Part shown: positions 1,414 to 20,148 of the stretch, piece by piece | Numbering within the stretch: the stretch's first letter is position 1 | Layout: each line of letters starts with the position of its first letter | DNA from: a virus | Strand: one strand, 5' to 3' | DNA length: 20,384 nucleotides | Virus record (IMG/VR): IMGVR_UViG_3300021960_000668 | Span: 1 to 20,384 of that record | Notes under the pieces: model-generated | What the model saw: only the letters and a program-made list of their open reading frames with translations | Database searches by the model: none | Told to the model about the DNA's origin: nothing | Position numbers and translations under genes: made by a program

Positions 1414-2455
1414 CTACTCTACCGTTACGAGTTCCGTTACTAATCCAGGTGACATTTGAATTGTTGACAATATAATATCCGGAAAGACCACCATCATATC
1501 CATTAAGACCATTTCCATTATTACCATTACCACCAGTTTCACCATCATCGCCAGGTTGACCATAAGAGCCACCATCTCCACCATCTCCACCAGTTCCAGC
1601 ATTAGTTCCACCACTAACACCACCAGCACCAGCAGTAGCTGCTCCATCATATCCTTGCCCCTTTCCACCAGTTCCACCATCTCCACCTGAGGTGTAGTTG
1701 GTATTGTAACCAGTACAAGTTCTGCGATAACAGCAAGTACAATCACAACATGCCCATAAGGGACCACTAAATCCATAGTTTGGTCGATTACAATTACAAG
1801 AATATGCGCTTGGATTTTGGCAAGAACATGCTCCCGAATAACTTCCACAATAGTGGAATCCACTACCACCACCAGAGTTACAATAGTCACAATTGTAACT
1901 ATATGAAGATGTATAATATCCACCACCACCATCTCCACCAGCGCCGCCACCGCCACCGCCAGCACTAATGGTTCCTTGGTTGTTAATTGATATATTATCA
2001 CCAGCAAAGACAGCATTTCCGCCATCTTCACCATCAGCATCATCTCCACCAGCACCACCAGCACCTAATATAAAACCATTATTATCTAATTGGAAATTTC
2101 CACCAAATCCTGATGGAACTGATATTGCATAATTTGAAGTATTTGTTGCACCAAGAGTAACTCCAGAATTAACAACTAGACGTTTTGGAACGCTAGATGA
2201 CCAGTCTGAAGAGTTGAAGTATGAGGAAGCATCTACATTTTCTGTATTTACTGTAATATAAACAACAATTTCTGCAATAGCGCAGAAAAAATCATCAAAA
2301 CTTATTTGACCACTAGTTGGAACATTTGTATTATTTGATGTTACATATGATCCATTTCTGTAATATTCATTGAGTGATATTGGATTTGTCCCACCAAATT
2401 CGGTTTGTATGTCTGCAAGACTAATTTGAGCTGGTCCAGGACAAGGTAGAGCCAT
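1409..2455 (-). CDS. Glycine-rich tail-fibre adhesin with a cysteine-rich insert
   Basis: A 348-residue protein that is probably the distal receptor-binding tip of the tail fibre. Residues 1-58 (ISLADIQTEFGGTNPISLNE, then NTNVPTSGQISFDDFF) form an N-terminal module I associate with cyanophage structural proteins. Residues 93-130 are beta strands leading into GGAGG and GGGGGG tracts (131-179) and a second glycine-rich tract (256-326) with GGDGG and GGNGN repeats. It ends NNSNVTWISNGTRNGRVG. This layout resembles gp38-type adhesins, where glycine-rich strands pack as polyglycine II helices. Between the tracts (189-247) lie 13 cysteines in 59 residues, including CC, CDCTCC and CNC clusters, an unusual insert. 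The start codon overlaps the fibre gene's stop (TAATG), consistent with the fibre-adhesin pairing. Specific receptor unknown. Confidence 0.7.
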   Translation of the reverse strand: MALPCPGPAQISLADIQTEFGGTNPISLNEYYRNGSYVTSNNTNVPTSGQISFDDFFCAIAEIVVYITVNTENVDASSYFNSSDWSSSVPKRLVVNSGVTLGATNTSNYAISVPSGFGGNFQLDNNGFILGAGGAGGDDADGEDGGNAVFAGDNISINNQGTISAGGGGGGAGGDGGGGYYTSSYSYNCDYCNSGGGSGFHYCGSYSGACSCQNPSAYSCNCNRPNYGFSGPLWACCDCTCCYRRTCTGYNTNYTSGGDGGTGGKGQGYDGAATAGAGGVSGGTNAGTGGDGGDGGSYGQPGDDGETGGNGNNGNGLNGYDGGLSGYYIVNNSNVTWISNGTRNGRVG

Positions 2456-5400
2456 TACTTACTCTCCAAATCTTCTACTCGTTTCGTTAATTTTTCAATA
2501 ATGTTTTGTTGCTCTTTAATCGATTCAATTAAGAGAGGAACAATCATTTCATACTTAACTGCCTTGTATCCATCTTCCCTAGTTGCCACAATCTCTGGCA
2601 ATACTTCTTCTATTTCTTGAGCGATTACACCTACATCATTCTTTCTTACAAAGAATCCATCTTCCCCACCTCTTTCTTCGATATAATCATCTTTCCAATC
2701 AAAATTCACACCATTGATTCTCAGTAACTTATTAAGAGCATCATTTATTGGTTTAATGTTTTCTTTGAGATTAATGTCTGATGAATAATAACCAGTGATG
2801 TTGTTAGTTGCTCTTATTTCTCCAGTGGTTCCTGATGCACCAGTTCCTACACCAAACGAATCAACCCTCACATCCTGGGCATTGAAATTTCCAGAAGCGT
2901 TTCTATAAACGATTGTATTTGCAGTATTTGCTGCAGTAGCATTACTTGTAACTGTAAATGTTACATCTTGACTATTGTCAAACGTTGCCGAACCACTAAT
3001 ACCATTACCATTAGTCCCCATCGTCAGGGTATGTGATAAATCACCACCGATTGATCCTGAAGAATTTATATTTGGAACCGTAAGTGTATTTGTTGATGGA
3101 TTGTATGTTATTCCAGCGTCAGTATAAACACTTTCATAAGTGGCAGATGATCCATTACTATCAACAAACGGAATATAAAAATTAGCATTTGTGCTATTCC
3201 TTTCCCGTTTAATCTTATCAGATTGTGCAACTGTTGCAGATGAAAAATTAACACCAACATTTGTTACACTAGTAATTCTTCCTTTAGAATCAACAGTAAA
3301 CTGTGGAATTGTTGAAGAATTTCCATAAGTATCTGCAGAAACGCCACTAGCAGAAAGAGTAAGATTTAGAGAAACGTTTGCACTTCCATCAAATGATACT
3401 GCAGGTGCAGATCCATCTCCAGTTATGCTAAAGTCCCTTGCTGTTGCTAATTTAGTTGCAGTATCTGCGTTTCCAATGATTGCACCTACAAATTCATTTG
3501 CATAAATCTTATCCCATTTAAGACTTGCTGTTCCTATATCATTAGTATTACCAGTGGAGGGGATAATATCACTATCAACTCTTCCTGTAAAAGTTATTGT
3601 GTCGCTAGTTCCATTTCCAAGATCAACATTTCCATTAAATTCTGCCAATCCTGTAACTGCTAAACTGCCAGCACTCAATAAATTTGTGCTTGGGTTATAT
3701 GATATTCCAGCATCAGTATATACAGACTCATATGAACCACTAGTATTATTACTGTCAACAAATGTCACATAGTGTGTTGCATTTGTAGATCTAGATGCTG
3801 TTAAGACAGTGTTAGATTGGGCAACTGTGGCATTAGCAAAATCAATACCAACATTAGATGCTGAAGTAATTCTTCCTTTCGAATCTACGGTGAATTGTCC
3901 AACTTCTGTGTCAGATCCATATGTACCTGCAGCAACACCTGTTGTGTCTAGTGCCGTTACTAAATTAACATTTCCAGTTCCATCAAATTCTACTGCAGAG
4001 GCATCAACGTCTCCAGTTATACTAAATTCTCTTGCAGTTTCTAATGCAGTAGCAGTATCGGCATTTCCTACAAAAGATCCATTAAATGTATCTGCATATA
4101 CAGCATTCCATCTCGATGACGTAGATCCCAGATCTATCGTTCCAGATGGTATTACATTACTATCAACAACACCATTAAATGTTATTGAATCAGACGAAGC
4201 ATTACCTAAATCGATATTGCCATTAAATGTTGCAGATCCTGATACTGATAAATTATCCGTAACCTGAACCGTTCCACCAGCAGAGTCTAATATTAAATTT
4301 CCTGATGATGTGTCAATTTCACTATTGCCAGAAACACCAATTCTAATGTTGTCGATTGTAGCACCACCATTGGCATCAATGGCACCAGTGAAAGTAGAAA
4401 TACCAGTAACTCTTAAACTATCTAATACTGATGGACCATCGACTGTTAGATCATTATTAATTAATGCCGCATTGACTGTAGCAAATCCAGTCACTCTAAG
4501 GTCTATAAGTTCAGTATCTACTACTGAAAGAGTAAAGACTGTAAGAATACCAGTTACGTTTGCATTGCTTATATTAATAAAGTCAACCGTACTTTCTCCA
4601 GTTACGGTTAGATCTTGATTTACAACTAAATTATCGTCTACAGTAGTTGTTCCACCAGCAGAATCAATGGTCAGATTGCCAGTAGAAGTATCAATCTCAT
4701 TATTATTAGCAACACCAATTCTAACATTGTCAATTGTAGCACCACCATTGGCATCTAAGAGACCAGTAAAAGTGCTTAAACCAGAAACACTAAGATTCGT
4801 TGCATTGAAATTATTAGTTGTTGTGAATCCAGTTACGTTAAGATAGTCAATCTCAGTTTGACCAGTTATTCTAGTTTCACCAAGGACATCTAGTCGTCTT
4901 GTTGGAAGAGTGCTTCCTATACCAACTCTATGATTGATATCATCATAGACAAAAAACTCTGCACCATCAACAACATTTGCCGTGTTGTGATATTGAATAC
5001 TTCTATAAGTTCCACCAGCACCAGGAGTAATGGTGCTTTGACTAATCCAAGTAAGACCACCAAATACATTTTTTGCTAATAACTGTGATGCTGTTCCAGC
5101 ATTATCAAAAAAGTCATATATGGTTCCATTTAATCTAATATCACCATTTACATGAAAATCTCTCTCTGGTCCAGTTGTACCTATTCCAATATTATTATTG
5201 GATACATCATAGAACATTGATGATGTTCCAGCAAAGTCATTGTTGTCATTAAACATGAACTGACCTTGCTCTCCAGGAGAAAATACAGTTACAGTAACTG
5301 CTACTCCAGGAGATGAATCTGGATTTGAGTATCCTTGTGCGCTAATTGCAGCACCAACAAAATTAAGTTGTGATGTGCTACTAATACCACCAGGAGGTGT

Positions 5401-5652
5401 AAGAACACCTTCATCGTAAATTGAAATAGCTCCCGTTGTTAATCCTGCACCAATCGGGATCCAATATCTTTCTCCAGGATTACTTTCTAATGAAATTATC
5501 TGATATTGTAATCCAAGAGGAGGAGAATCTCCAGGATAAACTGGGTCACCAAGATTTGGTTCAGTCTGATCTACTGATAGATAATCATACCTATCTTCTG
5601 TTAAATCTTCTTGAGGTCTTCTTTTAGACCTACCACTTAAATATCTTGGCAT
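2455..5652 (-). CDS. Long tail fibre with C-terminal S74 autoprotease chaperone
   Basis: A 1065-residue trimeric-fibre-type protein. The basic N-terminus (MPRYLSGRSKRRPQEDL) and residues up to about 130 look like the attachment module. Then come fibre repeats of the type NNIGIGTTGPERDFHVNG and RVGIGSTLPTRRLDVLG. A long beta-rich shaft of S-G-L-S-T-F-T-G units contains two sets of internal tandem repeats. The last ~109 residues are an S74 intramolecular chaperone: YYSSDINLKENIKPI, with the Ser958-Asp959 dyad expected to cut the chaperone off after folding, then GVIAQEIEEVLPEIV and a C-terminal coiled coil. The family chaperone trimerises the fibre and then releases itself. The glycine-rich adhesin gene follows with a TAATG overlap, suggesting fibre and tip are made together. 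Which T4 fibre it replaces is not clear from sequence alone. Confidence 0.85.
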   Translation of the reverse strand: MPRYLSGRSKRRPQEDLTEDRYDYLSVDQTEPNLGDPVYPGDSPPLGLQYQIISLESNPGERYWIPIGAGLTTGAISIYDEGVLTPPGGISSTSQLNFVGAAISAQGYSNPDSSPGVAVTVTVFSPGEQGQFMFNDNNDFAGTSSMFYDVSNNNIGIGTTGPERDFHVNGDIRLNGTIYDFFDNAGTASQLLAKNVFGGLTWISQSTITPGAGGTYRSIQYHNTANVVDGAEFFVYDDINHRVGIGSTLPTRRLDVLGETRITGQTEIDYLNVTGFTTTNNFNATNLSVSGLSTFTGLLDANGGATIDNVRIGVANNNEIDTSTGNLTIDSAGGTTTVDDNLVVNQDLTVTGESTVDFINISNANVTGILTVFTLSVVDTELIDLRVTGFATVNAALINNDLTVDGPSVLDSLRVTGISTFTGAIDANGGATIDNIRIGVSGNSEIDTSSGNLILDSAGGTVQVTDNLSVSGSATFNGNIDLGNASSDSITFNGVVDSNVIPSGTIDLGSTSSRWNAVYADTFNGSFVGNADTATALETAREFSITGDVDASAVEFDGTGNVNLVTALDTTGVAAGTYGSDTEVGQFTVDSKGRITSASNVGIDFANATVAQSNTVLTASRSTNATHYVTFVDSNNTSGSYESVYTDAGISYNPSTNLLSAGSLAVTGLAEFNGNVDLGNGTSDTITFTGRVDSDIIPSTGNTNDIGTASLKWDKIYANEFVGAIIGNADTATKLATARDFSITGDGSAPAVSFDGSANVSLNLTLSASGVSADTYGNSSTIPQFTVDSKGRITSVTNVGVNFSSATVAQSDKIKRERNSTNANFYIPFVDSNGSSATYESVYTDAGITYNPSTNTLTVPNINSSGSIGGDLSHTLTMGTNGNGISGSATFDNSQDVTFTVTSNATAANTANTIVYRNASGNFNAQDVRVDSFGVGTGASGTTGEIRATNNITGYYSSDINLKENIKPINDALNKLLRINGVNFDWKDDYIEERGGEDGFFVRKNDVGVIAQEIEEVLPEIVATREDGYKAVKYEMIVPLLIESIKEQQNIIEKLTKRVEDLESK
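3075..4250 (-). repeat. Imperfect ~0.6-kb tandem duplication inside the fibre gene
   Basis: Two consecutive ~195-residue shaft units share the same order of motifs: FNGNxDLGNxxSDxITF, then NADTAT, AR(E/D)FSITGD, QFTVDSKGRITS, ATVAQS, and YESVYTDAGI(S/T)YNPSTN. Matching segments at 3871 and 3277 (the VDSKGRITS region) are 594 bp apart, 198 codons exactly. The copies have diverged, with residue changes throughout and small length differences, so this is an old in-frame duplication that lengthens the fibre shaft. Confidence 0.75.
4265..4790 (-). repeat. Second internal repeat pair in the fibre gene
   Basis: The motif series STFTG-x-(L/I)-DANGGATIDN(V/I)RIGV, then EIDTS(T/S)GNL, then DSAGGT, occurs twice. 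The shared DNA segment encoding DANGGATID lies at 4736-4755 and again at 4358-4377, an offset of 378 bp or 126 codons. The unit is distinct from the ~0.6-kb repeat that follows it, so the shaft was extended by at least two separate duplications. Confidence 0.7.
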
Positions 5653-15936: not shown

Positions 15937-16653
15937 TCACCCGAAAAAAGCAGTCAGACCCTCCAGAACAATATCACTTTCAACACCAGTCTTTGGATTT
16001 TTAACCTTAACTGTATGAGACAACTTAGGCATGGTCTCAAAAAATGTTTCAATCTCTTTGAATTGTTTTGAACTTAACTGCTCCAAGAATTGTGTCAATT
16101 CCTTTTTAGTGCAATCTGAGGCAGACCATGATTCTTCTTCAGAATAAACTTGTTCAACACAAGAAGCGATCAAATCAAAAGTGTTGTCAACTGTTACTTC
16201 TTCTCCACTAAAATTGTTTTTAATGAACTCCTCAAGAGAAGGATACTTCATACGAAGAAATAGATCATCATCTAGTTTAATATCTCTTTTATGATTTTTG
16301 CCTCTGTGAACTCTAATTTCATCCAGGCTGATAATTGTAGGAACTTGTGTTACACCATCATCTGGACAAGTGACCATTACTTCTACTTCCTCACCAACAG
16401 ATTTACCTCTGATGTTAAGAAAGAGATATTCAATATCAAACGTTGAGAGTTGATCTACCTTAACTCCACGGGTGATAATGCAACTAGAAATTACATCCTT
16501 GATAGCACCAGTAATCTGCTTTTCATCCTCACTTTCCATAGCGATGATGAGAATTTTTTCTTCCTTAACTAGAAATGGTCTATATTTAATTTTCTTTCCA
16601 GTCGAAGGTAATTCCAACTCATACGTTGGCGTAGAGATCTTTGGTAAAGGCAT
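15937..16653 (-). CDS. 26: gp26-like baseplate hub protein
   Basis: A 238-residue protein of the T4 base-plate protein family (gp26-like, 208 aa in T4). The diagnostic N-terminal region reads MPLPKISTPTYELELPSTGK, then IKYRPFLVKEEKILIIAMES, DVISSCI and FDIEYLFLNIRGKSVGE. A beta-rich stretch with CPDDG follows (about 100-145) and then a helical C-terminal half. In T4, gp26 acts in hub assembly together with gp51, the next gene here. A GATAAATA box 27 nt upstream overlaps the stop of the gp54-like gene, so gp26 may have its own late promoter. The stop overlaps the possible GTG start of gp51. Confidence 0.8.
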   Translation of the reverse strand: MPLPKISTPTYELELPSTGKKIKYRPFLVKEEKILIIAMESEDEKQITGAIKDVISSCIITRGVKVDQLSTFDIEYLFLNIRGKSVGEEVEVMVTCPDDGVTQVPTIISLDEIRVHRGKNHKRDIKLDDDLFLRMKYPSLEEFIKNNFSGEEVTVDNTFDLIASCVEQVYSEEESWSASDCTKKELTQFLEQLSSKQFKEIETFFETMPKLSHTVKVKNPKTGVESDIVLEGLTAFFG

Positions 16654-16679: not shown

Positions 16680-16687
16680 TATTTATC
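16680..16687 (-). promoter_or_regulatory. Late-promoter-like box GATAAATA upstream of gp26
   Basis: The minus strand reads CTGGATAAATATCTTT, sharing the core GGATAAATAT with the box at 1406-1413. The TAA inside the box is the stop codon of the upstream gp54-like gene, again as at 1409-1413. It lies 27 nt before the gp26 ATG, which fits a T4-type late -10 box plus a short leader. Two independent cases with the same geometry make a chance match less likely. Confidence 0.5.
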
Positions 16688-17486
16688 CAGGTCCATAAGG
16701 ACTATCGTAAACTTGTCCACTATTAAGTGCCTCAGCATAAGTCATACCTTCGGGAATAAAGCTCACTCCACCAGATGCAGACGCAGCAGCAGATATTGGA
16801 ACGTATCTAGTATCATCTGAGGTAGATGTTGATGTTGAAACTTGACTATTATTTTGAATCTTATTATTATCAGTTCCACTGTGAATTGAGTAACTATCAA
16901 ACTTGCCAGCAATATATCTGTCGAAACTGAAAGTTGCGCTTGCTTTCAATATTTCAGAGTTTTCATACTTAACAGTTGTGGAAGATAGATCAATCGGAAA
17001 CATTCCGTAAAAAGTATATTGTATTTCTTGATTGTAGTCTCTATCAAATTTAACGATTTTAGTTTGGTTTGACTTATAAGAATCTGGATACTCCATTCGA
17101 TAATAATATCCAGCATTACTTTGTCCTTGACCAGATCCATTGCCAATGAATTCCATCCAATGATCTAAGAACTTTAGAGTTTTATATTCATCATCAACAT
17201 AAAATTCTAGTTGGATTTGAGTGAACAATCTAGTATGTGCCATCTTTTCAGAGACACCCATAAAATTTCCAACAATATCAGCAGTGGCAAGCCTACTACC
17301 AGGAAGAACTGCAGAATAGCAAAGGAGACCAGAAGTTTCTGTAATGAACCTATAATCAACTCCACGAACATTCAAGTGTTGTCTTAGGTCTGTTGGCAAC
17401 CCACCAAATATCACTTGATAATGGGATGTTTGTGCCAGATTAGTTAGTGTTGGTTTAAAATCAGATATTCTGCGGGGTGTTACCAC
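16683..17486 (-). CDS. 54: gp54-like baseplate tail-tube initiator
   Basis: A 267-residue protein with tail-tube-fold features. Examples are HYQVIFGGLPTDLRQHL near the N-terminus, YSAVLPGSRLATADIVGNFM, then GVSEKMAHTRLFTQIQLEFY and VDDEYKTLKFLDHWMEFIGN. IVKFDRDYNQEIQYTFYGMF and PIDLSSTTVKYENSEILKAS follow. Tube proteins of the gp19/gp54 group have this P-G-x-x-L/A-T pattern and the D-x-D-Y-K-x-L-x-F-L-x-H-W region. T4 gp54 (320 aa) starts tube polymerisation on the hub; this protein is shorter, with a Ser/Thr-rich disordered C-terminus. gp48, its partner in T4, is on the opposite strand about 0.9 kb away. The start is GTG with no clear Shine-Dalgarno. It could instead be another tube-fold baseplate protein. 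Confidence 0.6.
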   Translation of the reverse strand: MVTPRRISDFKPTLTNLAQTSHYQVIFGGLPTDLRQHLNVRGVDYRFITETSGLLCYSAVLPGSRLATADIVGNFMGVSEKMAHTRLFTQIQLEFYVDDEYKTLKFLDHWMEFIGNGSGQGQSNAGYYYRMEYPDSYKSNQTKIVKFDRDYNQEIQYTFYGMFPIDLSSTTVKYENSEILKASATFSFDRYIAGKFDSYSIHSGTDNNKIQNNSQVSTSTSTSDDTRYVPISAAASASGGVSFIPEGMTYAEALNSGQVYDSPYGPG

Positions 17487-17487
17487 T

Positions 17488-17494
17488 CTAAATA
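17488..17494 (+). promoter_or_regulatory. Late-promoter-like box CTAAATA driving gp4
   Basis: The plus strand reads TCTAAATAC 31 nt upstream of the gp4 ATG. CTAAATA is close to the T4 late consensus TATAAATA and resembles late boxes described for marine cyanomyoviruses. By analogy with T4 the start site would be about 6-7 nt after the box, near 17500, leaving a leader of about 25 nt. Confidence 0.55.
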
Positions 17495-17518
17495 CCTTAT
17501 ACGTCTTACATTATTAAG

Positions 17519-17525
17519 TATTTAG
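17519..17525 (-). promoter_or_regulatory. Late-promoter-like box CTAAATA driving the gp54-like operon
   Basis: The minus strand reads TCTAAATAC, the exact mirror of the plus-strand box, 32 nt upstream of the GTG at 17486. It should start the long minus-strand structural array. The last base of the 9-mer (17526) is the A of the gp4 ATG, so the box abuts the opposite gene. Predicted start is near 17513, which would make the two divergent transcripts overlap by about a dozen bases. Confidence 0.55.
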
Positions 17526-17963
17526 ATGGCATATAAGGGGAAATATCAACCTTCCAATCCAAAGAAATACAAAGGTGATCCAACTAATATCATTTACCGC
17601 TCTCTTTGGGAGCGCAAGATGATGAGATATTGTGACCTGAATGAAAATGTTTTAGAATGGCAATCAGAAGAATTTTGTATTCCTTATCGCTCACCAATAG
17701 ATAATAGAATTCATAGATATTTTCCAGACTTCTTTATCAAGTATAGAGATAGTAATGGGAAAATTAAGTCCTCCTTGATTGAAGTAAAACCTTTGAGGCA
17801 AACTACACCTCCACCAAAACCAAAGAGACAAACTCAAGGTTATATTCGTGAGGCATATGAGTATGCTAGAAACCAAGCAAAGTGGGAAGCAGCAAAAGAA
17901 TGGTGTCTTGATAGAGGTTATGAGTTTAGAGTCTTCACAGAGAAAGAACTCGGTATTAAGTAA
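17526..17963 (+). CDS. 4: gp4-like head-completion nuclease
   Basis: A 145-residue protein matching T4 gp4 (about 150 aa), the head-completion protein needed to finish packaged heads for tail joining. It has a TnsA-like PD-(D/E)xK nuclease core: SLWERKMMRYCDLNENVLEW with an early glutamate, then HRYFPDFFIKYRD (P67-D68), then SSLIEVKPLRQ (E86-V-K88), and a C-terminal helix-strand ending GYEFRVFTEKELGIK. The N-terminus (YKGKYQPSNPKKYKGDPTNI) is typical of the family. The ATG directly follows the mirror-image promoter box, and no Shine-Dalgarno is visible. The stop overlaps the next ATG as TAATG. Confidence 0.85.
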   Translation: MAYKGKYQPSNPKKYKGDPTNIIYRSLWERKMMRYCDLNENVLEWQSEEFCIPYRSPIDNRIHRYFPDFFIKYRDSNGKIKSSLIEVKPLRQTTPPPKPKRQTQGYIREAYEYARNQAKWEAAKEWCLDRGYEFRVFTEKELGIK

Positions 17964-18370
17964 TGCCAAGAAAGACCGTCAAACAGCAAAAACAAAAAAG
18001 GGTTACGGATACTGATACTAACCGCAACCGTATTCGTGCTGTCACTGATAATCTAGTTGGTAATGAAGATCCAGACGATATTATGCTAGAGTTAATGGAA
18101 TCTCTAGAAGAACTAACCGAAGCTCCACAATCTGGCAGATTTTATATCTTTGTTTATAATCCCAAAACTCCGAATATCGAATATGATCAGAATCCCTTTA
18201 TTGCCTTGACTGATATATTTGAATGGGGTTTTCGTGGAGTCAACTTCCACTGGGGAGAGACTAGACAATATACTTGGAACGAAGTCGCTGGTTCACTGTA
18301 TGAGGTTTATGCCTCAGAAGTAAAAGATCTTCAGGCACTACCTTTTGCAAAGTTCCGTCTAAATAGTTAG
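17963..18370 (+). CDS. Conserved-type phage protein, unknown function
   Basis: A 135-residue soluble protein. The N-terminal 25 residues are very basic (PRKTVKQQKQKRVTDTD), followed by an acidic helix (DPDDIMLELMESLEELTEAP). The C-terminal domain reads GRFYIFVYNPKTPNIEYDQN, then PFIALTDIFEWGFRGVNFHW. The pattern Y-x-P-K-x-x-x-x-x-x-Y-D-x-x-P ... F-x-G-x-N-x-H recurs, as I remember it, in small proteins of T4-like marine phages whose role is not established. The basic tail could bind DNA. It starts at the TAATG junction with gp4, so the two are translationally coupled, and it precedes gp48; a neck or tail-assembly role is plausible. It is not obviously gp2 or gp3. Confidence 0.65.
   Translation: MPRKTVKQQKQKRVTDTDTNRNRIRAVTDNLVGNEDPDDIMLELMESLEELTEAPQSGRFYIFVYNPKTPNIEYDQNPFIALTDIFEWGFRGVNFHWGETRQYTWNEVAGSLYEVYASEVKDLQALPFAKFRLNS
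18359..18365 (+). promoter_or_regulatory. Late-promoter-like box CTAAATA before gp48
   Basis: TCTAAATAG lies at the 3' end of the preceding coding region, 15 nt upstream of the gp48 ATG. If used, transcription would start near 18371, leaving only about 10 nt of leader with AAAGGA as ribosome-binding site. The match is the same octamer TCTAAATA as the divergent pair at 17487-17526, but the tight spacing makes this case weaker. Confidence 0.35.
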
Positions 18371-18380
18371 AAAAGGATAA

Positions 18381-19499
18381 ATGGCAGTTTCTCTCAGTGG
18401 AAATTTTCCAACTAGCACACCTTTTAGTGATGCGACCTTCTCTAGTTCCGATTCAACTTTAGGGTCATACCAGTCAGTGACTCCAGAAGGTCAAGCTAAA
18501 TTTACATCAGAATCTGGAAAAGGTGCCTCATATGAAGGCACTACAGTCAACAGATCTCTGAGATATCCTTATGCAATGTTGCAGGATAATACGGACTATT
18601 TGAAGATTGAAATTGCCGAATATCAACCACCTGGTCTTAGTTTAAGTGGTAATGAAACAAATGAAGGCGTAATAACTCAGGGTACGGATGAAAAAGGAGG
18701 TGCTATTGAAACAATAAATCCAAATTTCTCACTTCAAACTGGATCAAACACTAATAAAAACTCTCTTAAAAAACCAAAACACACAATCATTTTACCAATA
18801 CCACAACAACTCTCAGATTCAACTTCAGTATCTTGGGGAGATGCTGGTTTAAGTCCAATTGAAGCATATGGAATTGCTTCAACAGCTGGTGTAATGGAAA
18901 AAGGACTTAAAGGTGCTATAGAAGCTTTGATGACAGCATCAAATGGTTTGGGACAAATTGCAGGAGATGCACAACTACAGAGTGCAATTGTTGCTACTCT
19001 TTCTGGAGAAGCAATTGGTGCTCTTGGCGGAAACGTTAGTGGATCTCAACTAGTTTCCAGAGCAACTGGTCAAGTATTTAACCCAAATCTTGAACTTCTG
19101 TTTGAGGGTGTTAACATCAGATCTTTTCCATTCTCTTTTGAATTCTTCCCAAGAAATCCAAAAGAAGCAGATCAAGTAAAAAGAATTATTGGTGTTTTGA
19201 AAAGATCTATGAGCGCCAGGAAAGAAGGAAGCACTGGAAACATTTTTATTTCAGCACCAGATGTTTTCCAACTGACTTACATGAAAGGAAATAAAAAACA
19301 TCCTTTCTTAAATAGATTCTTACCTATGGCACTTACAAGTGTCAACATATCATACACTGGATCTAATACATATTCAACATTCTATGATGGAACTCCAACT
19401 CACATGAGAATGGATTTGACCTTCAAAGAACTCAACCCAGTCTACTTTGAAGATTATGAAGCTCTTGATAAATCTGGCGATACATCAGTAGGTTACTAA
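18381..19499 (+). CDS. 48: gp48-like baseplate tail-tube cap
   Basis: A 372-residue protein, close to T4 gp48 (364 aa), which caps the hub and with gp54 forms the platform for tube polymerisation. Recognisable parts are RSLRYPYAMLQDNTDYLKIE, PKHTIILPIPQQLSDSTSVS and WGDAGLSPIEAYGIA. The middle is alanine/glycine-rich and helical. The C-terminal region has NPNLELLFEGVNIRSFPFSF, EFFPRNPKEADQVKRIIGVL and PTHMRMDLTFKELNPVYFED, the strongest family signature. An AAAAGGA ribosome-binding site precedes the ATG. It lies 10 nt after the unknown 135-aa gene and 1 nt before gp53. Its partner gp54 is transcribed divergently, unlike T4, where genes 48 and 54 are adjacent. Confidence 0.8.
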   Translation: MAVSLSGNFPTSTPFSDATFSSSDSTLGSYQSVTPEGQAKFTSESGKGASYEGTTVNRSLRYPYAMLQDNTDYLKIEIAEYQPPGLSLSGNETNEGVITQGTDEKGGAIETINPNFSLQTGSNTNKNSLKKPKHTIILPIPQQLSDSTSVSWGDAGLSPIEAYGIASTAGVMEKGLKGAIEALMTASNGLGQIAGDAQLQSAIVATLSGEAIGALGGNVSGSQLVSRATGQVFNPNLELLFEGVNIRSFPFSFEFFPRNPKEADQVKRIIGVLKRSMSARKEGSTGNIFISAPDVFQLTYMKGNKKHPFLNRFLPMALTSVNISYTGSNTYSTFYDGTPTHMRMDLTFKELNPVYFEDYEALDKSGDTSVGY

Positions 19500-19500
19500 A

Positions 19501-20148
19501 ATGTCATACTTTAGAGAACTACCAGACTTATTTTATCAGTCTCCACTAGAGACTAAAAACTCCTCTACAGAATATGTAAGAGTCAAGAACCTTTTCAGAA
19601 GGGTTAAACTTCGTGATGATTTGCAAAGTGTTTTTACTCTGTTTAACAAGTACAGCGTTAGACAAGGAGAAAGACCAGACACAATCGCAGAAAAACTTTA
19701 CGGATCTGCTGATCTTGACTGGGTTGTGATGCTTACTGCTGGTATTATCAATCTTAGAGACCAGTGGGCACTTTCGGATTATGAATTATACAGATATGTC
19801 GAAAGTAAGTATGGTGATAATTTGAATGAAATTCGTTTCTATGAAACAAAAGAAGTTAAAGACTCTTCTGGTAGAATTGTTCTCCCAAAAGGAAAAGTTG
19901 TTGATTCTGGATTTACAATTCCAGATCCATCGAATAATTTAACAAATTTGAATCCTGTCAATGGAATCAGTAATTTTGAATATGAAGTCAGGAAGAATGA
20001 AGAAAAGCGTTTAATTTATATTTTAAAACCAGAATACTTACAACTCTACCTTAACGACTTGAGAAGAATTATGCAATATGAAAAGTCTTCACAATACATT
20101 AATGGAAGACTTGCTTCAACAGAAAATACTAGAAATACTTCACCATAA
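19501..20148 (+). CDS. 53: gp53-like baseplate wedge protein
   Basis: A 215-residue protein matching T4 gp53 (196 aa), which links the baseplate wedges around the hub. The N-terminus (MSYFRELPDLFYQSPLETKN) and FNKYSVRQGERPDTIAEKLY followed by GSADLDWVVMLTAGIINLRD are family hallmarks. The second has the LysM-like fold reported for gp53. The C-terminus (RLIYILKPEYLQLYLNDLRR) is also typical. It starts 1 nt after the gp48 stop, so it is in the same operon. The last 9 nt overlap the end of a convergent minus-strand gene, and no terminator hairpin is visible between them. Confidence 0.85.
   Translation: MSYFRELPDLFYQSPLETKNSSTEYVRVKNLFRRVKLRDDLQSVFTLFNKYSVRQGERPDTIAEKLYGSADLDWVVMLTAGIINLRDQWALSDYELYRYVESKYGDNLNEIRFYETKEVKDSSGRIVLPKGKVVDSGFTIPDPSNNLTNLNPVNGISNFEYEVRKNEEKRLIYILKPEYLQLYLNDLRRIMQYEKSSQYINGRLASTENTRNTSP

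Follow-up and report, generated by a model that had tools for sequence, protein, structure and literature searches.

Late promoters of the T4 type consist of a TATAAATA-like box at positions −13 to −6 (PMC1524935) and lack a −35 element; their transcripts begin about 6 nt past the box, in dependence on gp55, gp33 and gp45. Phage Aeh1 has CTAAATA as its published late box, and that of phage S-PM2 is NATAAATA (PMC1524935, PMC2984593). The open complex unwinds the DNA from −12 to +2 (PMC7892883) and the sliding clamp extends the footprint 13 bp upstream (PMC2988020). Two kinds of closely spaced divergent promoters have been described in bacterial systems: the Pr and Pc promoters of pLS20, which polymerase cannot occupy both at once (PMC4207663), and bidirectional promoters, in which opposite starts arise from symmetric −10-type DNA with coinciding elements, the starts usually lying 18 bp apart (Warman 2021; PMC10268837). 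A third relevant design is the hairpin lock of the T4 genes e, soc, 49, I-TevI and segB, in which a late box has its complement at the start codon and this second arm pairs with the ribosome site. A search among the accessible papers yielded no description of the gp4 junction treated here or of opposed T4 late promoters.

The DNA that was analysed (the window) is a viral record of 20,384 bases originating from a T4-like cyanophage. A 39 bp gap at 17487–17525 separates the GTG start codon of a minus-strand gene (17486) from the ATG of gp4 on the plus strand (17526). Copies of TCTAAATAC occupy both ends of this gap face to face, at 17487–17495 (+) and 17526–17518 (−), and a third copy is absent from the 20,384 bp. 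These coordinates bear out the sequence-only reading, which had described an exact inverted repeat in which each copy adjoins the start codon of the gene driven by the other copy. The left-hand late-promoter box, TCTAAATA at 17487..17494 (+), abuts the GTG and takes positions −13 to −6 for a gp4–gp2–gp48–gp53 operon. The right-hand box, TCTAAATA at 17519..17526 (−), belongs to a tail-tube/gp54-like–gp26–gp51 operon; base 17526 is shared, the A of the gp4 ATG being the last base of this box and its complement the first base on the minus strand. The two 7-base boxes are not coincident, being separated by 24 bp. Two copies of TCTAAATAC in any arrangement were obtained in one of 100 dinucleotide shuffles, and an order-2 Markov simulation gave an expectation of 0.0075 face-to-face CTAAATA pairs within 30 bp per window. 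A chance repeat was ruled out by this simulation together with the conservation in relatives described below. The absence of a clear Shine–Dalgarno sequence, claimed by the same reading for both genes, held for gp4; a weak AAGG precedes the GTG of the minus-strand gene by 8 nt.

The minus-strand gene (16683..17486) was assigned as a tail tube/gp54-like gene (phrog_45, E = 6.9e-43; PF23849, E = 1.8e-17). Its GTG start is annotated identically in P-SSM2 and S-SRM01, and a search of solved structures gave no match for its product. The second gene of its operon encodes the baseplate hub protein gp26 (15937..16653, minus strand; phrog_150, E = 4.4e-82; PF12322). On the plus strand, the gp4 head closure protein (17526..17963; phrog_218, E = 7.8e-60; PF08722, TnsA-like endonuclease N-terminal, E = 3.9e-26) is followed by a gp2-like DNA end protector (17963..18370; phrog_429, E = 2.3e-23), the baseplate tail tube cap gp48 (18381..19499; phrog_230, E = 7.2e-72) and the baseplate wedge subunit gp53 (19501..20148; phrog_232, E = 1.4e-69; PF11246). 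In S-SRM01 and S-SKS1, gp33 is annotated near the corresponding region. Elsewhere on the minus strand, the window carries a large tail-fibre-like protein (2455–5652), the C-terminus of which resembles by eye an S74-type self-cleaving chaperone domain, and a tRNA-Ile with anticodon TAT (108–200), which at 93 bases is unusually long for a tRNA-Ile.

The window boxes have the features of T4-type late promoters, namely a consensus box that lies in sense orientation a short distance before late genes, and their CTAAATA core is that of the Aeh1 late promoter; the Aeh1 promoters are described singly in the available portion of PMC1524935, whereas those of the window form an opposed pair. The closest counterpart is the gp4|gp53 junction of T4 (77350–77370), where TATAAATA likewise faces TATAAATA in a short divergent gap (47 bp) before gp4. 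It differs in its partner gene, gp53, in a 7 bp spacer, so that the two starts should not overlap, and in the presence of Shine–Dalgarno sequences between the boxes and the start codons. Opposed late boxes occur in T4 at 4|53, inh|segE and 26|51. At the last of these (42451–42462) two late boxes are fused into a palindrome, TATTTATAAATA, a single shared element from which transcripts would run away from each other. As in pLS20, polymerase is not expected to occupy both window promoters at once, here from their geometry; the unequal strengths, repressor/activator and DNA looping of Pr/Pc have no counterpart seen in the window. Unlike the coinciding elements of the bidirectional promoters, the window boxes are separate and lie outside, with overlapping predicted starts inside, so that the pair falls outside the −10-symmetry class (coinciding elements, divergent starts 7–25 bp apart). 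Compared with the T4 hairpin locks, the second arm in the window matches the promoter of the opposite gene, and the pairing mostly ends at the box edge.

The conservation of the inverted repeat in close relatives, which the sequence-only reading had named as a test of its proposal, was examined in two sets. The arrangement CACTCTAAATA...TATTTAGATG was found at the gp4 start in 75 of the 77 viral-contig relatives having sequence upstream of gp4. A wider set was assembled using gp4 proteins of the P-HM1, Syn9, P-SSM2 and T4 types (335 loci), from which loci with at least 90% ungapped gp4 identity were removed to leave 145; the comparison was gap-free, and a few near-identical loci may thus be counted twice. 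An opposed box pair was present at the gp4 start in 133 of these 145 dereplicated T4-like loci; the arrangement is conserved in relatives, and gp4 protein identity among the reference phages goes as low as about 40%. The inner spacing between the 7-base boxes ranged from 7 to 26 bp in the 133 paired loci, with no fixed helical spacing seen, and the spacer sequence was not conserved. In the 66 aligned loci of clade A, by comparison, the left box TCTAAATA and the right box TATTTAGATG were each 100% conserved. Whole records were also scanned. The pair was found at gp4 in ten of 11 cyanophage records (P-SSM2, S-SRM01, S-SKS1, Syn33, Syn9, P-HM1 and four further virus records, G001–G004), occurring once in nine of them and at a second site in G004 only; no opposed pair was present in the entire record of S-T4. 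Three T4-type records (G005–G007) had one pair each, at gp4. The scan of T4 itself returned four pairs, at gp4|53, inh|segE, segB (71917) and I-TevI (144430).

In three of the 12 exceptions (L060, L063 and L086, the last being S-SKS1) the pair is intact 371–381 bp upstream of gp4, before an inserted ORF. This ORF of about 110 amino acids contains an I-HmuI-like NUMOD domain (PF22083), begins MSYKG or MAYKG, a copy of the first codons of gp4, and ends where gp4 restarts; it is a homing-endonuclease remnant occupying the promoter-proximal place of gp4. S-T4 and L141 retain the gp4-side box alone, which shows that the second promoter can be dispensed with or replaced and counts against the two-promoter reading given below. 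In the S-T4 locus the right-hand box is gone from the gap (4055–4125), and a minus-strand TATTTAT inside gp4 at 4191, about 137 bp away, may substitute for it. The boxes of L147 are 1 bp apart. The remaining exceptions are distant phages, the neighbour being called co-directional in two (L168 and L338).

The box type differs between clades: the pair is CTAAATA/CTAAATA in P-SSM2-like, ATAAATA/ATAAATA in P-HM1-like and CTAAATA/ATAAATA in Syn9-like loci, and T4 has ATAAATA/ATAAATA cores (TATAAATA/TATAAATA). Each clade switch yields a valid late box. Across the genomes, sense boxes clustered 20–30 nt before start codons, with 46 in P-SSM2, 25 in P-HM1 and 26 in Syn9 lying within 80 nt, whereas reversed boxes before starts numbered three, none and one, respectively. 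Direction therefore matters, which fits promoters rather than a translation signal or a symmetric protein-binding signal. The median box-to-start distance in these three genomes was 23–26 nt; at the gp4 junction it was 21–35 nt in cyanophages and 31 and 32 nt in the window.

The gene opposite gp4 also changes, being gp54-like in the P-SSM2 and P-HM1 types, gp48 in the Syn9 type and in L149 and L158, and gp53 in the T4 type. Since the pair persists while the opposite gene changes, it is tied to gp4 and not to a fixed operon couple. Comparison of the Syn9 locus (L089, 4128–6445) with that of P-SSM2 (L082, 3619–6450) showed that gp4 has switched sides of the promoter pair: it is co-directional with gp48 in P-SSM2, and in Syn9 it lies opposite gp48 and is co-directional with Syn9 gp11 and gp26. 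In a junction list for P-SSM2 and P-HM1, produced by a crude, simple ORF finder, the gp4 island was the single inverted virion operon, or head-to-head virion junction, seen; the pair is rare because such junctions are rare.

The inverted repeat is very probably two separate late promoters of the gp55/sliding-clamp type, opposed in a near-minimal divergent gap. From the boxes we infer that both are used in the window phage, the left box directing the gp4–gp2–gp48–gp53 operon from a start near 17500 and the right box the gp54-like–gp26–gp51 operon from a start near 17513. With a T4-style start 6 nt past the box, the leaders would be 26 and 27 nt long and would overlap by 14 nt (17500..17513), by the T4 spacing given in PMC1524935; this agrees with the dozen or so bases of overlap predicted earlier. 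A near-standard leader in a squeezed gap presses each box against the start codon of the opposite gene, and such packing would require no special regulation. As the 31–32 nt of the window exceed the genome medians, the packing falls short of a strict minimum there. The arrangement is kept in cyanophages and T4, probably since it is close to the most compact layout from which two divergent late operons can start. Given the span of unwinding and the clamp footprint, two complexes should not fit on the same template, and a polymerase at one box should accordingly keep another from the opposite box of that DNA copy, as judged from complex size and geometry.

Such exclusion had earlier been proposed to force alternating expression of the two gene sets. 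A switch of this kind, in which mutual polymerase exclusion sets an alternating or strictly ratioed output of both operons, would suit the geometry being kept across loci despite differing partner genes, and it has a precedent in the overlapping divergent promoters of pLS20, where polymerase binds one at a time (PMC4207663). Forced alternation is nevertheless not supported by the inner spacing of 7–26 bp, by the unconserved spacer or by T4, where a 7 bp spacing should yield no transcript overlap, and no regulator site was seen; the switch is very doubtful. Late infection is expected to involve many genome copies, and exclusion acting on a single one need not make expression alternate within the cell; with replication under way on many copies, the two operons would be produced at the same time, and timed alternation is not needed. 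Quite improbable, too, is a broader proposal that the opposed gp4 pair is an old selected device of T4-like phages combining per-copy exclusion, which would balance two low-copy virion operons (e.g. gp54 versus gp48), with a start-codon lock against read-through. Pairing of the complementary mRNA 5′ ends in trans, by which the leaders would limit each other, could draw on the 14 bp perfect duplex (−18.5 kcal/mol) predicted from the putative starts. The overlap (spacer minus 10) is variable, however, being absent in T4, mostly 6 nt in Syn9-like loci and 16 nt at most, and this antisense mechanism can hardly be credited.

The remaining alternatives place the function of the reversed box in the RNA. 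As a hairpin lock, the two arms would pair in read-through RNA and hide the start codon, and transcripts from the late promoter, lacking the 5′ arm, would be translated; in this layout, promoter function would be required of just one arm for each direction. The same scan did find segB and I-TevI of T4, which are known or implicated cases (PMC3014915, PMC2988022), the minus-strand read-through RNA of the window folds at −17.2 kcal/mol (z = −3.85), and in relatives the minus-strand gp32-side genes lying past gp53 are a possible source of read-through. On the plus strand, however, z is only −1.03, the fold predicted for P-HM1 is not the hairpin (z = 0.43), the outer pair is C·T in 33 of 34 Syn9-like loci and reversed boxes at start codons find little use at other genes of these phages. 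Just inside the boxes, complementarity drops at most positions to that of shuffled sequence, which speaks against selected RNA pairing; the slight excess over shuffled sequence in clade A (0.36 versus 0.20 at the first inner position, 0.76 versus 0.51 at the fifth) may reflect shared ancestry. A lock is thus unlikely as the explanation of the repeat. A read-through lock could arise as a by-product of the box pair, since e, soc, 49 and I-TevI are locked in this way in T4 (PMC3014915, PMC2988022). The reversed box might instead be a translation signal and not a promoter, as it occupies the Shine–Dalgarno position and a gp4 Shine–Dalgarno sequence is rare (six of 140 non-T4 loci). It is almost absent before other genes of the same genomes, however, and its sequence tracks the late-promoter type and not the start context; this reading was disfavoured and is extremely improbable.

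With two packed late promoters as the preferred reading, less than 40 bp is enough for opposed late promoters to serve both sides of a divergent late-operon junction, as occurs at gp4 in both cyanophages (Kyanoviridae) and T4-type phages (Straboviridae) although the opposite gene differs. The case also carries a warning, in that an inverted late box beside a start codon is not necessarily an RNA hairpin switch. The gp4 junction is a clean site for testing interference between two facing clamp-dependent polymerases.
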